From a bacterium (lineage in GTDB: Bacteria > SZUA-182 > DTGQ01): DNA of 10,856 bases. Within the stretch, counting starts at the first letter, position 1. Every line of letters begins with the position of its first letter. The DNA lies in assembly GCA_023512255.1 (NCBI GenBank), contig JAILZY010000108.1, positions 1 to 10,856 on the forward strand, given 5' to 3'. Made by a program: the position numbers and the translations under genes. Positions 220-10,856 of the stretch are shown here, in pieces. Under the pieces are notes generated by a model that ran no database searches, had not been told where the DNA came from, and saw only the letters and a program-made list of their open reading frames with translations.

Positions 220-1191
220 ATGAGGAAGGTTATGAAGAGGGCAAGCTTTTTTATCGTTTGCACGGCTCTATGTTGGTGGCTGCTTTTGGCTGTCCCAGCA
301 GTTGAGGCAGCGATAGCTGAATATTTAAAAGAGAATATCACTCCTGCTTTGGTTATCCACCAATTTAACAATCAACTTCCCCTTGGTCAGCCGGTTGATG
401 TTTATATTGATGGCTCCGGCAATCTTTATGTGATCGACTCTTCAAGCAAGGCTGTTCTCATCTTCGATAATCAATATCAACCCTTAAGTAGGCTAGATGC
501 GGTGAGCGGTTTGTCATCGCCAAAGGCAGTAGCCGCAGATCAGAAGGGCTATATTTATGTGTCCGATGCAGAAGGCGGAATCCTGGTTTTTAACTCCATT
601 GGCAAGATTGTCCGAAAGATTGATCTGGATCATTTGACCAAGGGCAAGGTTAGGTCTGCTCAAGACCTAGCTATTGACCAGTCTGGCTACCTATATCTGG
701 CTACTGGAACAGAGCAGGGGGCATTGGTCATAGATCCCCAGGGTAGGCTCAAGATGGCCATAACTCCTCAGGAGCCAGCCAAGGAGGAGGGCATGGGGCC
801 AACACCGGTAGCTGTTGATCGGCTAACGCTTGATTCAGACGGCAGAATCTATCTGCTCAGTGCGCAGATGGGAAGAGTCTATGTTTATCAGAGTCCTGAC
901 AGGTTTTTGTTTCAATTCGGACAAAAAGGTGGATCCTTTGGGAAACTAAGTCAACCGGTTGGCATCGCGGTTGATCGGTCAAAGGGATTAATCTATGTCA
1001 TAGACTATATGCGACATACCCTGAGTATATATAATTTGGAAGGGGTATTTTTGCAGGAATACGGCGGTCAGGGTGAAAAGCCGGGTTGGTTTAGCCATCC
1101 CAACCAGATCTGTCTGGATAAGCAACACCGTCTGATTGTGGCCGACTCTTTTAATCATCGTCTTCAGGTATTGGCTGTTCAATCGCCATAG
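220..1191 (+). CDS. Exported six-bladed NHL-repeat beta-propeller protein
   Basis: The 323-residue protein begins with a basic, strongly hydrophobic signal peptide, with likely cleavage after VEA at about residue 30. The cysteines in the leader do not fit a lipobox, so a soluble periplasmic or secreted protein is more likely than a lipoprotein. The rest is six NHL-type blades at about residues 58-83, 100-125, 147-172, 198-224, 245-271 and 293-318. Each follows the pattern P-x-x-[IV]-x-[IVL]-D-x-x-G-x-[IL]-Y-[IV]-x-D, ending in an aromatic or aliphatic strand such as VLIFD or LQVLAV. NHL propellers normally act as protein-protein or ligand scaffolds; no catalytic residues are evident. The gene lies 211 bp before a multihaem cytochrome gene on the same strand, with a related propeller after that gene. 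A role in assembling or docking the cytochromes is inferred from this context only. Confidence 0.85.
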   Translation: MRKVMKRASFFIVCTALCWWLLLAVPAVEAAIAEYLKENITPALVIHQFNNQLPLGQPVDVYIDGSGNLYVIDSSSKAVLIFDNQYQPLSRLDAVSGLSSPKAVAADQKGYIYVSDAEGGILVFNSIGKIVRKIDLDHLTKGKVRSAQDLAIDQSGYLYLATGTEQGALVIDPQGRLKMAITPQEPAKEEGMGPTPVAVDRLTLDSDGRIYLLSAQMGRVYVYQSPDRFLFQFGQKGGSFGKLSQPVGIAVDRSKGLIYVIDYMRHTLSIYNLEGVFLQEYGGQGEKPGWFSHPNQICLDKQHRLIVADSFNHRLQVLAVQSP

Positions 1192-2673: not shown

Positions 2674-3720
2674 ATGAGAAGTTTTGGTCTGGTGAAGGCG
2701 GCGTGCGGCCTTAGTGGCCTTGGTTTTGGTAGCCTTGGTATATTTGGTATAATTATTGGCAGTCTTGGTATAATTGGTAGTAGTATTCTTTTTGGCGCGC
2801 TGGTGGGCTTCTCTTCACCTGCTTTGGTTAAGAGTGCTGAAGCCAAGGAGGCTAATCCTAAGGCCAAGATCCGTATGGAGTGGCTTTTTGAGGTGCATGG
2901 AAGCCAGAAGGGCCAACCTTTCAGTCGTCCTCAGGGAATATTCCTGGATACCATTAAAAAGAAGGTTTATATCGCCGATACGGACCGCGGACAGGTGGCT
3001 ATATTTTCCTTTTCAGGAGAGCCGCTGGGCGTTTTGACAACAGATCGGCCTCTGGCCAGCCCGCTGGGGATAGCGGTCGATTCTGAAGGTAAAATCTACA
3101 TCAGCTACCGAGATAGGCCGTCGCTGGACATCTTTGAGCCTGGAGGAAAGTATCTTTTCTCCATTCCTTCCTCTGAAGCGATGAAGAGGAAGGAATATGC
3201 TGAATTTTTAGCTGGAAAATTTGTGCTCGGTCCGGCTGGCAGGATATATGCAGTGAATAGAAAGAAGGCTGAAATTTGGGTATTTGAGCCAAGTGGGGCT
3301 TTGGCCTTTCGTTTTGGCGGCAAGGGGATGGGAGAAGGTAATTTTCAGTTTATTACTGATATTTTTTCCCGAGAGGGAAAGATTTATCTAACCGACGCTC
3401 AAGGGGTCCCGGTGCAGGTCTTCAGCCAGCAGGGTAAGTATCTTTATTCCTTTGGCAGACATGGCCAGCATGAGGAAGATTTTTCTTTTCCAAACGGCAT
3501 TTGTGTGGACCGCCACCAGAGGATATGGGTAGCTGATGCTTTTCGTCATCAGATCAAGGTTTATGATCAAAGCGGAAATTTTCTGTCTGGTTTTGGTATC
3601 TTTGGAACAGAAGCGGGGAAATTTTATTTTCCCGTTGACCTTGACTTTGACAATCAGGACAGGATATATATATTAGAAAAAAGTGGCCATAGATTTCAGG
3701 TATTTCAAATCAAAGATTAA
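2674..3720 (+). CDS. NHL-repeat beta-propeller with a glycine-rich hydrophobic leader
   Basis: The protein has 348 residues. Residues 9-52 are almost entirely G, I, L, F, S and A, far longer than a normal signal-peptide core, and include the decapeptide repeats GSLGIFGIII and GSLGIIGSSI at 19-38. A possible signal peptidase site follows at SAEA (54-57); otherwise the segment may stay as a membrane anchor or hairpin. No lipobox is evident. Six NHL blades follow at about 83-112, 129-156, 181-207, 224-251, 271-299 and 318-345, with patterns such as P-x-G-I-x-[VL]-D and [IV]-W-V-A-D. It is the same fold class as the propeller at 220-1191, but with clearly different sequence and leader. Close coupling to the upstream cytochrome gene suggests it scaffolds or docks that cytochrome, perhaps at a membrane. 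This is inference from context. Confidence 0.85.
   Translation: MRSFGLVKAACGLSGLGFGSLGIFGIIIGSLGIIGSSILFGALVGFSSPALVKSAEAKEANPKAKIRMEWLFEVHGSQKGQPFSRPQGIFLDTIKKKVYIADTDRGQVAIFSFSGEPLGVLTTDRPLASPLGIAVDSEGKIYISYRDRPSLDIFEPGGKYLFSIPSSEAMKRKEYAEFLAGKFVLGPAGRIYAVNRKKAEIWVFEPSGALAFRFGGKGMGEGNFQFITDIFSREGKIYLTDAQGVPVQVFSQQGKYLYSFGRHGQHEEDFSFPNGICVDRHQRIWVADAFRHQIKVYDQSGNFLSGFGIFGTEAGKFYFPVDLDFDNQDRIYILEKSGHRFQVFQIKD
2728..2787 (+). repeat. Duplicated 30-bp unit encoding the Gly-rich leader
   Basis: The 30-bp units 2728-2757 and 2758-2787 are imperfect tandem copies, both beginning GG(T/C)AG(C/T)CTTGGTATA. They encode GSLGIFGIII and GSLGIIGSSI within the hydrophobic leader of the second NHL protein. 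The similarity is visible in DNA as well as protein, which points to expansion by slippage or unequal recombination. Confidence 0.75.
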
Positions 3721-4068
3721 TTAATTATTATTAACAAGTTATTGGTCCTTTCGCTAAGTGTGTAACACAAGTGCACAGCGGATCAATTAGGCTATCAATC
3801 GTAGGTTGCGGACCTTGTGTCCGCCGCAGCTTGCGCACTTTATTAGCGAAAAGACCACTTATTCTATGGATAGATTAAAGAACAGGGAGAGAAGGGGAAA
3901 AGATGTAAATAAAAGATAAGGGAAATACGATTCGCTTCTTGGAAGAAGTAAGAAGGAAGAGTAGAGTAAGATAAGGTTATATCAAGTTTGGGTAAGAATA
4001 TAGCAAGTTGCATTGTTAGGTGAAGAGTGCTCCCCGTAATTTTTAGTTAGAATGATGTGGAATTAGAC
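3721..4068. other. 348-bp intergenic region without a gene
   Basis: The gap separates the second NHL gene from the giant cytochrome gene. Its first part is AT-rich, followed by the inverted-repeat element at 3743-3857. The stretch from about 3875 to 3980 is purine-rich on the + strand (many GAAG, AGGG and AAGA runs) and contains a short palindrome, CTTCTTGGAAGAAG, at 3935-3948. I see no convincing open reading frame, no clear sigma70 or sigma54 promoter, and no intrinsic terminator with a T-tract. The giant gene probably has its own promoter here, but I could not place it. Confidence 0.6.
3743..3857. repeat. 115-bp element with imperfect terminal inverted repeats (MITE- or REP-like)
   Basis: TGGTCCTTTCGCTAA at 3743-3757 pairs with TTAGCGAAAAGACCA at 3843-3857 at 14 of 15 positions. 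Just inside, AAGTGC (3769-3774) and GCACTT (3835-3840) extend the symmetry. The interior holds a perfect 6-bp hairpin, GCGGAC/GTCCGC, at 3808-3824. TTAT flanks the left end directly (3739-3742) and lies one base beyond the right end (3859-3862), a possible but imperfect target duplication. It has no coding capacity. It could be a non-autonomous mobile element, a dispersed palindromic repeat, or a structured RNA or transcription-attenuating element between the two genes. Confidence 0.5.
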
Positions 4069-7000
4069 GTGAAGAAAGCAGTCTCTATCTTTGCAGGTTT
4101 GTGTATTGTTTCGATTTTTTCCCTTTTTCCCGCGATCGCTGGGGAATACCATATCAATATCCCAGGCAAGGGGCAAAACTTAAACTGCTATGATTGTCAT
4201 ACACTTCATTTCAGCCAGGACGGCTCTGCCCCGCCGCAGGTCCCTATCGGAGCAAGACCTTGGGGAGGAGCGCCGCAGGATTATCTTTTAAAAAATATTA
4301 CTTCGGAAATGTGTCTCATGTGCCACGACGGCACTAACCCCGAGGCACCGCAAGTTACCTACTCTCCCTTATCCGGGTCTGTCTCCTCCACGTTTAATTA
4401 TCAGAGTTCAGCCGGCTATTTAGGTGAGGAAAAGAACGCTTCTGATCCCAGCTATTCTGTCTTTGGCCACACGCTAAACTCTTCTGATCCTCCCCCTGGG
4501 TATAATGGGGCCTGGGAGGGGATCCTCTCTTGCACTCGCTGTCATGACCCTCACGGCAATTCATATTATCGGAATCTTCGGCCAAAACCTTTAGTTGGTT
4601 CTGCAAATGGTTCTGTAAATGATTCTGCAAAAGGAGCTCCTCTGACCTATTTTATCAGCACCTCACCGGACGCATCTAAAGATAAGGTGATTCAGATTGC
4701 CGTCGGCCCGAATGATTCACCTTTTCTGCGCTATGATTTAAACAAGATTATCTACCGTCAGGAGGGAGACGGTGTCCAAAATTCTGCCGGTCTTTCCTTC
4801 TGGTGTGCTGGATGCCATTCCGATTTTAACCACGACGGCAAAAGCCAGGGGCCGAGGAAGCTTCATCCTACCTATGGGCTTAGCATGTCTGAGGCTAAGC
4901 CTGAGATCAGAGATAAGTGGATAAGCTCAGCTTCAGGGCCTCCGACTAGGCCTCCAACCATAACCCCAACCGACACAAATCGGGGCGAGGATCGCCTCTT
5001 TTGCGGCACCTGTCATAAGGCTCATGGCTCAACCCACAGCTATGGGTTGCTGTGGGAAAACCCTGCGGCCTCTGATCGAGAAAGCGGCCAATACATGCGA
5101 GATACCTGTCAGGCTTGCCATAATATTGGCCAGGGGCATTATGAGTCAAGCCCTCATGCGGACCCAAATTTTGGGGTCTATCGAGTGCAAGAATTCGCTA
5201 GGGGTGAGTGTGAGCATTGCCATCAGCAGCACGGCACCCCGCGTGGGGCTAGCAGCGGCAGCAGCAGTGGCGGCCAAAATAGCGGCGGCATGGTGCGGGA
5301 TTATTATGAGCATAACTTATTTTCCGCTAACAATAAGTTTTTGTGTCTGACTGACGGCTGTCATAAAGACGGCCCGCCCTCCTATCCTCTTTCTGATACC
5401 ACCTTTTCAGATGAGACATCAAAAGCCAGGATCAGTATTGCCGTCGTCCCTGGCAGCGACAGAGCCTATCTTGGCTACTTCGAAGCCAACCGGCAAATCA
5501 ATAATACCATAGTCCGGCTTGCCGGCCTGCAATATCGGGGAAGGTGGCCGGGGGCTTCTGTTTACAACAATGAGCAATATTCTCCGCATGGTCGAGAGCA
5601 GGGCCCCATGCCTGATGGGGGCTCGTGTCTTAATTGTCATAGTCCTCACGGCACGGAGAGCCAATTTGACATGCTCAAATTGCCCTATAGGGGGACCCCT
5701 AACTCAAGCAGTCAAGCGGCTGATAATTATAAGCTTTGCTTTAGCTGCCACAGTGAGCAGGGGCCATCTGAGATGAGGGCCGAAACTAAAAAAATTGCCA
5801 GCTATTATACTCTGGATGATCCCTACTCAGGGCATCGGATAAAAAGTGCTAATGGGTTTGCCCAGCCAGGGGATAAACTGGCCTGCTCAAATTGTCATAA
5901 CCCTCATGGTTCAATGGGCCATAACAAAAGCGCCCCTAATCTTCATCTCCTTTCGGATGAGCGGCCAGAGTGGAGTGGGCTTAAGGATACCTTGACTGAT
6001 CCTAATTCCTCCCGAAAATTTTGTTTTGGCTGCCATGTGCCCTCTGACTCTCCTCAGAGTGAGAAGGAAAAATGGCCTAAGGTGGAAGGAATTCAGATGC
6101 AGCCGATTCCTGACTTTGCCGAGCACCGACGAGAGGCGGCTGGCAGCTGTCACAGTTGTCATGGCGGAAGCTATGATAAACCCGATTCGGAAAATGTCCA
6201 TCATCCTTCCCCGGGCAGTTGCGATAAGTGTCATGCGGATCAGGGAGCCTGGGAGAGGAAGGTGTATAGTGGGCCTCACCGCTCTCATACTGACCGATAT
6301 GCTTTTGCCTGTGAGGTCTGCCATGCCCGACAGAACCGCAAAGCCGCAAAAGCCACTCATGGCTATGGCAAGCCGCAGGGGGCGATTTGCCAGTATGCAG
6401 AAGTGTGCTTCTGCGACGGCTCTGATTCAATTGATTGGAAGGAGCAAGTTCTCCATAAGAAAACTTACCGCTATCGCTCTTTGTACCATAATCCCTATGA
6501 TAAGGCCGGGATTGTGCCAGGCTATGATGCTTCAGCCTATGAGCGGCCCGAAAGCCGCTGTTTGCCTGATCCGGTTGATCCCAACCGCGTTCTTTGGACC
6601 GACCAGAGCACCTTCAGGGGGCAGGATTCGTGCAGCAATATCTGGTGTCATAGCAATGCTAATCCACTCAGCTTGCCTAACTTTCCTAGGGCGAATAGCT
6701 ATCGGGCTAACCCTTCATTTCACCTGACCTGGGATGAGCATGACACGGATCGGTGCAATAATTGTCATGGATTTACGGATCTAGATCAGCCGGCTGAGCA
6801 ATACCAGCTCTCCTCGTATCACCGAAAGCATATTGTGGTTACTACACCAGGGAAAGCTACATGCGGCAAGGAGAAGATCCGCTGCGGCTGGTGTCATGCC
6901 AAAACCTGCAGTGAGGATTCAAACACTATTCGGGAGGATGGGGGATACTCCTTCCATGTCAATGGGGTAAAGGATGTTGTTTTCCTCGATCCCAATGGGA

Positions 7001-10000
7001 AATATACTGTTGATAGCAATACTGGTAAGCGCACCTGTTTGGTGAGCTGCCACAGTCGCGACGGGGTGCTGATTCCAGTCTGCTGGGATGAGCCTGAGCC
7101 TGAGAAGGTCTGCGGAACCTGCCATGATGTTTATGCTGGGGTTGGCTCTTGCCGCAGCACGATTTCTACAGGTGGACACTCTGCTCATCTGGTTGCTGAT
7201 CGGGGCCCGGGCGGTCCACATTCGGTTGAGCAGTGCGATGAGTGTCATACCTCACATGATGATCCTGCCCATAGCAATGGTTGGGTAGATTTTAAAGATG
7301 GCCAGATACTGGCTAAGACCACTGTGTGCAATAACTGCCATAGCCCGGGCGGTGATTATGACGGAGTGAATGATCCTGAGATCGGGGCCAAAAAAATTTG
7401 GGAGGCCGAAAAAAAATCGGGGGAAGCAGGCGGCGTGTATGTAGCTTCTGGTGGGAGGCTAGAACTCAAAGAGAGCAAAAAGAAGTGGTGTGTCGGCTGT
7501 CATGATCGGCAGCCAGCTACAAGCCGCAGCGATGGCTCTGGGGTGATGGCTCCGAACATAGCTGGAGATGAGCAGGCATTTTTGGTTTATGGGAGAGGGT
7601 ATGGTTATTTTGTAACCGGTCATGGTCTAGAAAAGAGTAAACCTTATCCGGCCTCAGGGGTACAGGGTGCTGGAGTCTCCTGCACGGATTGTCATGAGGC
7701 TAGCCTTGGTCATATTGATCATGCTCATCGTACGTACTCAGTCAGGCAGAAAGATAACCCAAACAATAAGAGCAATTATCGGCTTGGCTATCGTCTCAAA
7801 GCCTCGCCCTTGGCCACTGACCCGAATCGGCCTCTTGATATTCCAAGGACAGCCGCCACCGGCCCTAATAATAATCCACAGCAGCAGTGGCAAGATTTTG
7901 CCCTCTGCTTTGAGTGCCATGATAGATCTGCTTTGCTGGGCAATGGCATAAGCTCTGGTGAATACTATAAAAATCCCCTTCAGACGAATTTTTACAATGA
8001 TGCCCGTACCTATAAGGAGGACAATACCAAGAAAGAAAACCTCCATCTTACTCATTTAACTGGAAGAGGGGGTGGGGGTAACAGTCTCGATTGGACCTCC
8101 AGTTGGAGTGAAACCGGCGACTCGGCCATTAGCTGTCCTGCCTGCCATAATGTGCACGGCTCTCCATCTCCTCGCATGATGCGTCATGGGGAGCTTATCA
8201 GCACGCCTGGCTCTACGGATAAAGTGCCGGGCTTAAATTTCCGCTATCTCCCCTATCCGCCATCAAATACGGTCCTTGCGGAAAGCAGTGGAGGAGAAAT
8301 TTTCAGGCAGTTTAGCAGCGGACCAGGCTCGATTTCGCAAAATAAGATTTGCAACACCTGCCACCGAGCCTTTATACAATATTCCCGCTCACCCTATCTT
8401 GATCCGAACAAGGTCAATCCCCAGATCCTGAGCGTTGTGGCTCACAACGGCCCCGATGGAGGACAGGGGATCAACGATGGTGATTATCTAACTATCACCT
8501 TTACCACAGCCATCAATAACCCAGAGGTTATCCAAGGGGCTGAAGATGTAAAATCCGTAATCAAAATTTACGGGGATAGCGGCCTGAGCCAGGAAAAGGA
8601 ATGGACGCCCGCTTTGATAGAATGGTCATCAGCAGGGGGACATTCGAATGATACCCTACGGATCTTCTTGCAAAAGGTGGGCAGCAGCATTGCAGTTGGT
8701 GATTATCTTAGAGTGCTGCCGGGAAAACTTTATGGCAAGCTTGGCACGATTGTGCTTCCGATCGACTCATATCAGCAGATTACAGGCTCATTTGATTGCG
8801 CACTGGTCAGAGCTGTAGCTGAAAATAATTCCCAGAGTCTGGAGCCTGGAATTCAGGCAGGCGATCAGGTAACGGTTTACTTTTCAGGCTCGGTTGATGT
8901 CTCAACTACTGAGTGGCGGCTGACTTCAGACAATATTGATCAGGCTCTGCGTCTAGACCACGATCATAGTTGGGGGAAGGTTGAGATCAAATGGAATGAG
9001 CCTATTTATGATGCCCTGACTATAACCTTTGGCAGCGGGCCGCCTGCTCCTACGATTGCGGTTGGTGATCGCATCAGCCTGGGGAATATCATTCATGATC
9101 GGTTCAAAAATCAGATGACCGGATCGGTCAAGCTTGAAGGCTCCTTCGATGCTCTGCTCCCGATCAGCCCTAAGGGAGTATACTGGTGCAATATTGCTGG
9201 GCCGCCCTGGGGTGATGTCTCAAAATCGATTGATGGAGATCCGAATACACTCTGGTCTCTAGGCGGGTCAGCGGAAGGGAAAATCAGCTATGATCTGGGG
9301 GCCCAATATCGAGTTTTTAGGGTCATAATCTTGAGCGGCGGCAGCAGTGAAAATAAGGCTGCGGATCCGCCCAAGGCTATGGTCAAGGTGTGGCTGACGG
9401 CAAGTCCTGAGTATGATCCAAAATCTCCGCTCATTAACTCTTGGGAGATACCGATAACTCCAGAACCGCATGTTAGCCCGCCGTTTGAGGCCACGGGCCG
9501 GTATTTGCGGATTGAAGCCACAAAAATTGGGGCAGGTCCCCTTGGCCCGCTTTTCCATGAAGTGCAATTTCAGGGCACATATGTGCTTCCCTATGCCGCT
9601 CCTCGGATTGTTGGGGTTGAGGCCTATAATGTAGCGGGTGGTGTAGGGGTAGATGATGGTGATGAGGTAGTGGTGCGGTTTAATGTTTCGACCAATGGTT
9701 CTGAGGTGATTCGGGGTGTAGATGATGTAGCCTCTATTTTAGCGGTTTATGGGGATGCGGATCACAAGGTGGAGAGTAGAAAGAGCTGGGGTAGTATAAA
9801 GAAGGTTGTCTGGTCTGATGAGGGGGGAAATAAGGATGACACGCTGAGGATAACCCTGGGTGGTGGGGATGTGAGCATTGCGGCTGGGGATGTGGTTGAG
9901 GTGTGCTCGAGCAAGCTGAAAGGGAGAGTGGATGGGTTTGAGCTACCGATAGTCTCATCGCAGGTGATCAGGGGAAGCTTTGACTGCTCTGTGGTCAGGG

Positions 10001-10856
10001 CAGTAGCCGTGAATCAGTCCCAGAGTCAGGATCCTGGGATTCAGGAAGGTGATCAGGTGATCATTTCCTTTGCTGGCCAGAGCGGAGGCACGCCGATCAG
10101 TCCGGATAAGATTGATGATGCCCTGCGGTTGAATAATGGTCATAGCTGGGGGCAGGTCAAGGCAATAGAGTGGAGCGATCCTAACACCTTGATCATAACC
10201 TTTGGTGCTAGCAGTCCCAGTCCAACCATTGCTGTTGGCGATCTCATTACCCTGGGTGGTGTGATTTGCGATCGTGGTCAGCATCCGATTTTGGGATCGG
10301 TTGAGCTGATCGGCTCTTTTGATCCTCCGCAGGCTGTGTGGCGGACCCCAGAGGCTATTCACAGCTTCAGCCCGGATGCTTGGGGAATTACTAATGCTAA
10401 AAAATCAATCGATAATGATACCACAACCTCCTGGACCGTGATGAGCGGCACCGCCCGAATCACCTATGATCTTGATCCGAAATATCAGGCTCAGTATCAG
10501 GTTTCTCAGCTTAAGATATTTTTTAGCTCTAGCAGTCAACTGGTGAAAGCCTTGGTCAAGGTTTGGGTTACCACGGGTCCGACCTATGATCCGGATGCTC
10601 CAACCTCTGGCCCTTATGAAATATCAGTAAATTCTTCAGGCTGGATTGAAATTCCGTATCAATTTTATGCCAAGGGCCGCTATCTCACCTTAGAGCTTAC
10701 CAAAAAGACCCCAGGCCCCTTTGGTAATTTTATCTCTGAGGTGCAATATAAAGATGGTAAGGTCCAATTACCTGAGCCTGCTCCTCGGATTGTTGGGGTT
10801 GAGGCCTATAATGTAGCGGGTGGTGTAGGGGTAGATGATGGTGATGAGGTAGTGGT
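4069..10856 (+). CDS. Giant multihaem cytochrome with C-terminal Ig-like and discoidin-like repeats, 3' end outside the window
   Basis: The frame is open for 2262 codons without a stop. The GTG start is chosen because it gives a classic signal peptide (MKKAV, hydrophobic core, AIA at 22-24) and has a weak TGGAA seven bases upstream; an in-frame stop at 4048 excludes earlier starts except GTG 4057. CXXCH motifs begin at residues 40, 82, 155, 246, 312, 347, 381, 521, 557, 606, 652, 694, 718, 748, 896, 939, 1015, 1056, 1087, 1141, 1205, 1280, 1356 and 1428. CX4CH lies at 426 and 855, and CX3CH at 990, so up to 27 haems. Several sites read CxxCHxxHG (doubled-CXXCH family). A Ser/Gly linker lies at 391-407. 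From 1451, tandem 394-residue repeats each hold two Ig-like modules and one discoidin-like module. Likely role: surface electron conduit with adhesive tail; the anchoring mechanism is not visible. Confidence 0.9.
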   Translation, partial: MKKAVSIFAGLCIVSIFSLFPAIAGEYHINIPGKGQNLNCYDCHTLHFSQDGSAPPQVPIGARPWGGAPQDYLLKNITSEMCLMCHDGTNPEAPQVTYSPLSGSVSSTFNYQSSAGYLGEEKNASDPSYSVFGHTLNSSDPPPGYNGAWEGILSCTRCHDPHGNSYYRNLRPKPLVGSANGSVNDSAKGAPLTYFISTSPDASKDKVIQIAVGPNDSPFLRYDLNKIIYRQEGDGVQNSAGLSFWCAGCHSDFNHDGKSQGPRKLHPTYGLSMSEAKPEIRDKWISSASGPPTRPPTITPTDTNRGEDRLFCGTCHKAHGSTHSYGLLWENPAASDRESGQYMRDTCQACHNIGQGHYESSPHADPNFGVYRVQEFARGECEHCHQQHGTPRGASSGSSSGGQNSGGMVRDYYEHNLFSANNKFLCLTDGCHKDGPPSYPLSDTTFSDETSKARISIAVVPGSDRAYLGYFEANRQINNTIVRLAGLQYRGRWPGASVYNNEQYSPHGREQGPMPDGGSCLNCHSPHGTESQFDMLKLPYRGTPNSSSQAADNYKLCFSCHSEQGPSEMRAETKKIASYYTLDDPYSGHRIKSANGFAQPGDKLACSNCHNPHGSMGHNKSAPNLHLLSDERPEWSGLKDTLTDPNSSRKFCFGCHVPSDSPQSEKEKWPKVEGIQMQPIPDFAEHRREAAGSCHSCHGGSYDKPDSENVHHPSPGSCDKCHADQGAWERKVYSGPHRSHTDRYAFACEVCHARQNRKAAKATHGYGKPQGAICQYAEVCFCDGSDSIDWKEQVLHKKTYRYRSLYHNPYDKAGIVPGYDASAYERPESRCLPDPVDPNRVLWTDQSTFRGQDSCSNIWCHSNANPLSLPNFPRANSYRANPSFHLTWDEHDTDRCNNCHGFTDLDQPAEQYQLSSYHRKHIVVTTPGKATCGKEKIRCGWCHAKTCSEDSNTIREDGGYSFHVNGVKDVVFLDPNGKYTVDSNTGKRTCLVSCHSRDGVLIPVCWDEPEPEKVCGTCHDVYAGVGSCRSTISTGGHSAHLVADRGPGGPHSVEQCDECHTSHDDPAHSNGWVDFKDGQILAKTTVCNNCHSPGGDYDGVNDPEIGAKKIWEAEKKSGEAGGVYVASGGRLELKESKKKWCVGCHDRQPATSRSDGSGVMAPNIAGDEQAFLVYGRGYGYFVTGHGLEKSKPYPASGVQGAGVSCTDCHEASLGHIDHAHRTYSVRQKDNPNNKSNYRLGYRLKASPLATDPNRPLDIPRTAATGPNNNPQQQWQDFALCFECHDRSALLGNGISSGEYYKNPLQTNFYNDARTYKEDNTKKENLHLTHLTGRGGGGNSLDWTSSWSETGDSAISCPACHNVHGSPSPRMMRHGELISTPGSTDKVPGLNFRYLPYPPSNTVLAESSGGEIFRQFSSGPGSISQNKICNTCHRAFIQYSRSPYLDPNKVNPQILSVVAHNGPDGGQGINDGDYLTITFTTAINNPEVIQGAEDVKSVIKIYGDSGLSQEKEWTPALIEWSSAGGHSNDTLRIFLQKVGSSIAVGDYLRVLPGKLYGKLGTIVLPIDSYQQITGSFDCALVRAVAENNSQSLEPGIQAGDQVTVYFSGSVDVSTTEWRLTSDNIDQALRLDHDHSWGKVEIKWNEPIYDALTITFGSGPPAPTIAVGDRISLGNIIHDRFKNQMTGSVKLEGSFDALLPISPKGVYWCNIAGPPWGDVSKSIDGDPNTLWSLGGSAEGKISYDLGAQYRVFRVIILSGGSSENKAADPPKAMVKVWLTASPEYDPKSPLINSWEIPITPEPHVSPPFEATGRYLRIEATKIGAGPLGPLFHEVQFQGTYVLPYAAPRIVGVEAYNVAGGVGVDDGDEVVVRFNVSTNGSEVIRGVDDVASILAVYGDADHKVESRKSWGSIKKVVWSDEGGNKDDTLRITLGGGDVSIAAGDVVEVCSSKLKGRVDGFELPIVSSQVIRGSFDCSVVRAVAVNQSQSQDPGIQEGDQVIISFAGQSGGTPISPDKIDDALRLNNGHSWGQVKAIEWSDPNTLIITFGASSPSPTIAVGDLITLGGVICDRGQHPILGSVELIGSFDPPQAVWRTPEAIHSFSPDAWGITNAKKSIDNDTTTSWTVMSGTARITYDLDPKYQAQYQVSQLKIFFSSSSQLVKALVKVWVTTGPTYDPDAPTSGPYEISVNSSGWIEIPYQFYAKGRYLTLELTKKTPGPFGNFISEVQYKDGKVQLPEPAPRIVGVEAYNVAGGVGVDDGDEVV
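4597..4632 (+). repeat. Three 12-bp repeats inside the giant cytochrome gene
   Basis: Three in-frame 12-bp units, GGTTCTGCAAAT, GGTTCTGTAAAT and GATTCTGCAAAA, encode GSAN, GSVN and DSAK. They lie between the third and fourth haem motifs in a region that looks like a flexible loop. Being a multiple of three, copy-number change would alter loop length without shifting the frame. Confidence 0.75.
6631..6768 (+). other. CxxxxCH...CxxCHG domain (PF09698-like) within the giant cytochrome
   Basis: Residues 855-861 read CSNIWCH followed by SN. About 40 residues later, after a Trp-containing spacer (HLTWDEHD), CNNCHG begins at residue 896. This C(x4)CH...C(x2)CHG arrangement matches the GSu_C4xC__C2xCH domain first described from repeated units in Geobacter sulfurreducens cytochromes. 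Only one clear copy is present. The CX4CH at 426 (CLTDGCH) lacks this context. Confidence 0.6.
9172..9582 (+). other. Discoidin-like (F5/8 type C) module, repeat unit 1
   Basis: Residues 1702-1838 show the order typical of discoidin or CBM32-like folds: KSIDGDPNTLWS (a loop with Asp and Trp), a KISYDLG strand, an FRVIILSGG strand, an AMVKVWLTASPEYDP segment, a GRYLRIEATK strand, and a final FHEVQFQG strand. Such modules often bind glycans or other surface ligands through their loops. Family membership is judged by pattern only, and ligand specificity cannot be read from it. Confidence 0.6.
9598..9674 (+). repeat. 77-bp exact direct repeat, internal copy
   Basis: These 77 bases are identical to 10780-10856. 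The base before the repeat differs (C at 9597, T at 10779), so the left boundary is sharp; the right boundary is set by the window end. They encode the start of repeat unit 2 (PRIVGVEAYNVAGG and onward). Confidence 0.95.
10336..10758 (+). other. Discoidin-like (F5/8 type C) module, repeat unit 2
   Basis: Residues 2090-2230 repeat the discoidin-like order: KSIDNDTTTSW, RITYDLD, VSQLKIFFSSS, LVKALVKVWVTTGPTYDP, GRYLTLELTK and ISEVQYKDG. The sequence differs considerably from the module at 9172-9582 while keeping the Asp/Trp loop and the GRYL strand, which suggests constraint on the fold with freedom in binding loops. Confidence 0.6.
10780..10856 (+). repeat. 77-bp exact direct repeat, copy at the window end
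   Basis: Identical to 9598-9674 and offset by exactly 1182 bp. It opens repeat unit 3 and runs to the last base of the window, so its true length is unknown. Confidence 0.95.

Follow-up and report, generated by a model that had tools for sequence, protein, structure and literature searches.

A giant cytochrome gene with 27 haem-type sites and discoidin-type tail units in a putative Oet-type cluster

Gene content of the locus and integrity of the giant frame

The stretch of DNA analysed herein (the window) is 10,856 bp in length and constitutes one complete contig, C121, of the draft genome G000 (3.83 Mb, 172 contigs, 96.6 % complete). Four genes are found, all on the + strand: an NHL propeller, an OmcS-like cytochrome, a second NHL propeller and a giant frame. 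These genes, and the parts into which the giant can be divided, are as follows.

220..1191, + strand: exported NHL-repeat beta-propeller, 323 aa (Pfam PF01436, E 1e-22); the same gene occupies the same place in L030 and L027
1403..2647, + strand: OmcS-like cytochrome, 414 aa (phmmer to OmcS 6ef8/6nef, E 6.7e-7; profile of seven relatives, E 4.4e-22)
2674..3720, + strand: second NHL-repeat beta-propeller, 348 aa (Pfam PF01436, E 3e-21); a propeller gene lies here in L027, L028, L029 and L030
4057..10856, + strand: giant cytochrome gene, its 3′ end missing at the contig end (complete 2,561-aa orthologue at L030:5702-13387)
4057..4143, + strand: hydrophobic secretion signal, approximately residues 1-29, with no typical lipobox (by eye from the sequence)
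4129..5124, + strand: haem module 1, residues 25-356, 6 CXXCH (OmcS PDB profile, E 2.6e-12; separate genes in L089, L091, L092 and L094)
5137..6261, + strand: haem module 2, residues 361-735, 8 sites (blastp to L089, 1e-50, and L090, 5e-66)
5344..5364, + strand: CX4CH haem site at residue 430, CLTDGCH (ordinary CXXCH in the same column in L027, L089 and L090)
6262..8376, + strand: haem module 3, residues 736-1440, 13 sites including CX4CH (859) and CX3CH (994) (PF09698, 20.5 bits against a cut-off of 21.7; paralogues)
8401..9585, + strand: tail unit 1, two related beta domains (~8413-8784 and ~8785-9156) followed by an F5/8C domain
9169..9585, + strand: discoidin (F5/8 type C, CBM32-like) domain of unit 1 (PF00754, 29.5 bits, cut-off 28.2; PDB profile; fold comparison Z ~8 on a weak model)
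9586..10770, + strand: tail unit 2, 45 % identical to unit 1, with its F5/8C domain at 10336-10770
10780..10856, + strand: tail unit 3, start only (exact 77-nt copy of 9598-9674, at the contig end)

The giant frame (4057-10854) extends over 2,266 codons with no stop and an open 3′ end. An earlier note on this DNA had described one frame of at least 2262 codons beginning at 4069, which holds true, the count given here being from the GTG at 4057; both positions are alternative in-frame GTG starts, with a clear ribosome site at neither. Because the window is the whole contig and the frame runs off its end, the C-terminus of the giant is missing from the window. The window's final 77 nt (10780-10856) repeat the beginning of tail unit 2 (9598-9674) exactly, and no third good copy of this repeat was found in the G000 genome. 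A break inside such a repeat fits an assembler stopping there, as is to be expected when sister units 2 and 3 display 92 % DNA identity (L030:11042-13384, in the genome G001 described below). These two sister units share long identical stretches of protein sequence, which points to either recent duplication or gene conversion.

Directly before the giant gene, at 3740-3861, lies an element of ~122 bp with inverted ends, which belongs to an abundant MITE- or REP-like family. At least 40 copies are present genome-wide, mostly at 86-91 % identity (40 of 209 candidates scored), and the element forms a strong hairpin (DNA fold z -3.8).

With regard to the authenticity of the giant, the sister genome G001, from the same genus, harbours the complete gene; its product matches the window's protein in having 24+1+2 haem sites, is 70 % identical to it over ~2,190 residues and comprises three tail units. 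Values of dN between the two are 0.18-0.19 for the haem modules and 0.24-0.27 for the tail, with dS above 1 throughout; all parts of the giant are under purifying constraint. In G003, from another genus of the same family, a frame of 1,307 codons links the later haems to a single tail unit. Misassembly of the haem and tail parts, which the earlier note had named as grounds for rejecting its own reading, was itself rejected, as the same join recurs in the independent assemblies G001 and G003. An assembly artefact in the broader sense, whereby the haem and repeat parts were wrongly joined or the number of units inflated or collapsed, is extremely improbable: although the contig ends in the exact 77-nt repeat and leaves the unit number of G000 uncertain, the join is shared with G001 and G003, and no stop interrupts the frame, which is under purifying constraint. 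The listed relatives of G000 comprise nine genomes of its class and none from other classes of the phylum, and its lineage is therefore sparsely sampled.

Haem modules and their separate counterparts

The giant contains 24 CXXCH, one CX3CH (residue 994) and two CX4CH (residues 430 and 859) motifs, giving 27 haem-type sites within residues 44-1436, the last of which is at residue 1432. A chance origin of the CXXCH sites was ruled out by shuffling, with residues 1-1450 yielding a mean of 0.13 CXXCH and a maximum of 2 over 2,000 shuffles, compared with the 24 observed. In the alignment with the G001 protein, all 27 lie opposite a haem-type site, the three unusual examples among them, such that both this count and the sister protein bear out the 27 motifs in the first ~1430 residues that had been read from the sequence beforehand. 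The site at residue 430 is argued to be real because three homologues have an ordinary CXXCH there (CFECH, CYNCH and CYHCH). Histidines number 73 in the first 1,450 residues, which is sufficient for 27 predicted bis-His haems. Several CXXCH-type sites together with an export signal, the latter read by eye, identify the giant as a multihaem c-type cytochrome at the level of sequence. Among the families put forward in the earlier note for an HMM check, PF09699 scored above cut-off, as did PF14522 and PF14537, whilst PF09698 fell below it at the score given above. A PDB sequence search with the whole haem part returned nothing useful. By its sequence profile, module 1 is a distant relative of OmcS. 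Paralogues of module 3 are found within further large cytochromes encoded by G000, with 47-60 % identity over parts on contigs C134 and C41 and a weaker match on C120.

A profile search of 386 bacterial genomes recovered fused modules 1 and 2 only in the window's family and order. One or both occur in shorter frames of ~350-440 codons in six further genomes, several of which display them as neighbouring genes. In G182, the counterpart of module 1 is a 6-haem gene (E 2e-37) and that of module 2 the 7-haem gene immediately after it (E 1e-50); a propeller comes next, then a frame of 705 codons and lipoprotein-like frames. The fetched region of G331 similarly contains module 1 and a module-2-like gene, together with a propeller and a further exported frame, of which the start is covered. 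The arrangement in G321 and G183 is more extensive, comprising 26-haem-type and 16-haem genes, an NHL gene, an OmcS-like gene, a second NHL gene, module 1, a 9-haem relative of module 2, a large NHL-repeat frame and two more frames, with the 26-haem frame of G183 cut by the end of the fetched stretch; the 26- and 16-haem blocks are present in L092 and L094. As all four of these unrelated bacteria encode modules 1 and 2 separately, in genes lying side by side, the giant is a fusion, in gene order, of neighbouring cytochromes, and may be described as Oet-type cytochromes to which a third, 13-haem part and a lineage-specific tail have been joined.

Other combinations of haems with adhesive-type domains exist in these organisms. 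An fn3/Big_1 protein is joined straight to modules 1 and 2 in G002 and G004, and the haems of these modules have therefore become linked to adhesive-type domains in more than one way. Two other cytochromes of G000 itself (L066:5963-9946 and L065:3912-7409) contain 15 CXXCH and a Golvesin_C domain each, and one of them also has F5/8C.

Upstream of the giant, the 414-aa OmcS-like cytochrome (1403-2647) possesses five CXXCH motifs and a CAGASGCH sequence of Cx5CH type, the Cys and CH of which are kept in several aligned relatives. The latter is a putative sixth haem site, and an unusual one if real. By homology, and with this inferred site completing a set of six, the protein can be placed with the OmcS-type cytochromes.

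Composition and possible function of the tail

The tail has a period of 394 residues, the same motif occurring at residues 1455, 1849 and 2243, and within the window it amounts to two complete units and the start of a third. Each unit contains two beta domains of ~120 residues, which are related in that both match the same repeats of other proteins, followed by a likely discoidin (F5/8C, CBM32-like) domain, for which a Pfam match, a PDB profile search and a fold comparison on a weak model all speak. The PF00754 match passes its cut-off in unit 1 only (29.5 versus 28.2 bits); other copies in the window do not do so alone, and those of the orthologue in G001 (26.9) and of G003 (22.4) also fall below it. 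A profile of six copies searched against the PDB gave as its top matches GH92 mannosidase, chitobiase, alpha-N-acetylglucosaminidase CBM32 and sialidase domains (E 1e-3 to 0.1), whilst a PDB sequence search with the whole tail gave nothing useful. An AlphaFold2 model of one unit, built from a two-sequence alignment, has a mean pLDDT of 52 and is used as weak support: many discoidin domains match its last third (VIA Z ~8, 113 residues, 3.3 A), and Foldseek assigns a probability of 0.99-1.0 to several single discoidin domains, but with E above 0.001.

The two beta domains are less easily classified. No Pfam or PDB sequence match to an Ig-like family was obtained for them, the nearest being Big_9 at E 0.095 in one of ten members. 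In the same low-confidence model, the first domain aligns with an Ig-like domain from SbsC, an S-layer protein (98 residues, Z 9.1, 2.8 A), and an Ig-like identity is thereby only suggested. Thus, of the tandem discoidin- and Ig-like modules that had been proposed from the sequence, the discoidin-type repeats stand on PF00754 and the PDB profile, whereas the Ig-like part found no counterpart by sequence and is hinted at by the model.

Complete tail units are present only in G000, G001 and G003 among the 386 genomes, whilst the second beta domain alone also occurs in other bacteria. Outside the class, no CXXCH was present in any frame examined of the best hits (L098-L114, L116-L124, L129-L136, L141-L144 and L148, ~3.4 kb each). 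Within it, the classmate G005 contains a single open frame of 13,481 codons (G005:C32:4835-45277; L032-L034) with no CXXCH, which harbours several copies of the tail's beta domain and an ARWDGSxWNALGSGL-type repeat end; its product is a surface-type protein of very large size. Similar frames, thousands of codons long and likewise containing this beta domain, are found in G007:C69 (L035).

Adhesion of the tail to polysaccharide is a plausible prediction. The discoidin fold in other proteins can also bind lipid or protein, and the giant might be a surface redox protein whose tail serves as a spacer or stalk with no glycan binding, the discoidin fold being used for protein contacts, for example with neighbouring cytochromes or parts of a surface layer. 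The Pfam scores are weak in all copies but one, the first beta domain is, in the weak model, similar to Ig-like domains from two S-layer proteins, SbsC and SbsB, and the 87 % identity of two sister units is of the sort seen in structural repeats, all of which would suit such a stalk. We nevertheless regard it as unlikely, given that the top PDB sequence matches are discoidin-type modules of glycan-acting enzymes.

Cluster context and proposed role

In G001 the giant is seen to adjoin the genes that follow it; the corresponding downstream series of G000 begins on another contig, C10 (L064). Located 3′ of the giant in G001 is a 1,207-aa fn3/Big_1 (invasin-type) protein, then a 567-aa exported protein with no Pfam family and lipoprotein-like genes. 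Beyond these, the contig encodes a 5-haem cytochrome, a HAMP protein and a prolyl isomerase, together with two cytochrome frames, one of 25 and one of 16 CXXCH, a propeller and additional cytochromes. The 25- and 16-site frames (L070:7832-11078) overlap in different reading frames, and may be either overlapping genes or the result of a frameshift in one gene. A candidate for the outer-membrane beta-barrel OetI is present at this place, as a conserved exported protein of 536-567 aa without a Pfam family; none of the tests applied linked it to the published porin. Its alternating-strand signal is z 2.4-4.0, yet the beta-rich tail of the giant scored equally high; an AlphaFold2 model from a two-sequence alignment (pLDDT 29) was unusable and was discarded.

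This gene content resembles two published systems. An operon of seep sulfate reducers and metal reducers has a four-gene core, namely a six-bladed propeller, a prolyl isomerase and two cytochromes, of 16 and 26 haems (PMC5539420), whilst the OetABI conduit for extracellular electron transfer (EET) occurs with OmcS/OmcX-like cytochromes in ANME-partner sulfate reducers and in Geobacter (PMC10553843). The Oet-type set, with propellers, PPIase and the frames of 25 and 16 CXXCH, is found on one contig of G001 and split over C121 and C10 in G000, the assignment being one of gene content and not of sequence identity to published Oet proteins. As in an Oet-type cluster, a propeller, an OmcS-like cytochrome, 16-/26-haem-type cytochromes, a prolyl isomerase, a membrane-type protein and lipoproteins are found together, and modules 1 and 2 of the giant correspond to separate cytochromes of such clusters. 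The difference is that these cytochromes are here fused into a single chain of 27 haems, to which a third module and a discoidin tail also belong. Module 2 is a candidate for the extracellular cytochrome lipoprotein OetB in position only, the giant having no typical lipobox by eye. With regard to OmcS (PDB 6ef8, 6nef), the upstream gene and, more remotely, module 1 are sequence relatives, but module 1 is built into a larger chain, and the upstream protein is likened to OmcS by sequence, its filament formation being hypothetical.

Cytochromes with adhesive domains have been described elsewhere. OetF has fibronectin domains, and contact with matrix or partner has been proposed for it (PMC10553843); going by its description, it is likewise an EET-cluster cytochrome fused to an adhesive domain with the same proposed purpose, but with fibronectin in place of the giant's discoidin units, although a fibronectin-type fusion does occur in the relatives G002 and G004. 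Multihaem cytochromes of ANME carry S-layer or pectin-lyase-like domains, with partner contact proposed (PMC9012536); as described, these (MHC-A/B/C) are similarly very large multihaem proteins fused to surface domains, but are archaeal. A multihaem transcript of a soil Fe(III) reducer contains a fibronectin type III domain (PMC6199725). The tail matches F5/8 type C/CBM32 (PF00754) in profile and, on a weak model, in fold, but with weak scores, and differs in being joined to haems. Among the best hits in the open-licence literature, no paper joins discoidin to a multihaem cytochrome. The statement in the earlier note that no described example was known can thus be kept, within that literature, for the discoidin combination, but not for adhesive domains at large. 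Neither the cluster nor the concept of an adhesive cytochrome is new in itself; the novelty lies in a fused 27-haem chain with discoidin units in this lineage.

We consider it moderately probable that the giant is a secreted outer-surface cytochrome of an Oet-type EET cluster, anchored in a glycan matrix by its tail. From its context, the protein would be exported across the outer membrane, and its 27 haems would form a continuous wire from an outer-membrane exit point, or from an OmcS-like filament, to an external acceptor or partner. The discoidin units may bind matrix glycans, a mineral-associated polymer or a partner cell, and such binding would keep the haem chain at the contact site. This surface role is favoured because all 27 sites and the joins are conserved under constraint, with the join also present in G003, and because the better covered clusters with modules 1 and 2, which also include large membrane-type and lipoprotein-type genes, match both the published operon of propeller, 16-/26-haem cytochromes and prolyl isomerase and OetABI with OmcS/OmcX. 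It is favoured further by the OmcS relative in the window, by the Big_1/fn3 protein, barrel candidate and PPIase of the sister cluster, and by the fact that huge surface-type proteins of the class, themselves free of haem sites, contain the tail's beta domain as well. Counted against it are that the giant has no lipobox or membrane anchor and that the barrel candidate has no Pfam family. The term conduit, as used in the earlier note, is too simple, since the giant shows neither a transmembrane nor a barrel part; what synteny suggests is a soluble secreted cytochrome that would work beside a separate candidate outer-membrane protein, an OmcS-like cytochrome and other large cytochromes.

A location in the periplasm has also to be weighed, where the giant would be an electron store and bridge, and its tail would bind peptidoglycan or the inner face of the outer membrane. 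A signal of Sec type only, with no lipobox, would be in keeping with this, as would the predicted periplasmic location of the core proteins of the published operon, including its 16- and 26-haem cytochromes (PMC5539420). However, discoidin, fn3 and invasin-type domains are typical of the cell exterior, the neighbouring cytochrome is OmcS-like, and the tail's beta domain is shared with giant surface-type proteins, making this location quite improbable.

Returning to the surface reading, a more specific and decidedly speculative version of it, to which we give a low probability, is that the giant is a covalent junction, in which the OmcS-related module 1 would dock on the end of a putative filament formed by the OmcS-like cytochrome encoded just upstream, modules 2 and 3 would pass electrons on, and the discoidin tail would fix the filament end to a glycan surface. 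If true, the giant would be a built-in connector between a cytochrome nanowire, a cell-surface conduit and a matrix or partner cell. The finding bears on how cytochrome filaments connect to outer-membrane conduits, and on how electron-exchanging cells stay attached to their partners or to minerals. The giant is a compact target, in that its tail unit could be studied by itself for glycan binding and its haem part for conduction. Cytochromes that are separate proteins elsewhere are fused here in gene order and joined to modules of a carbohydrate-binding type, an arrangement that sets the sequence of the parts and hints at a coupling between conduction and attachment.
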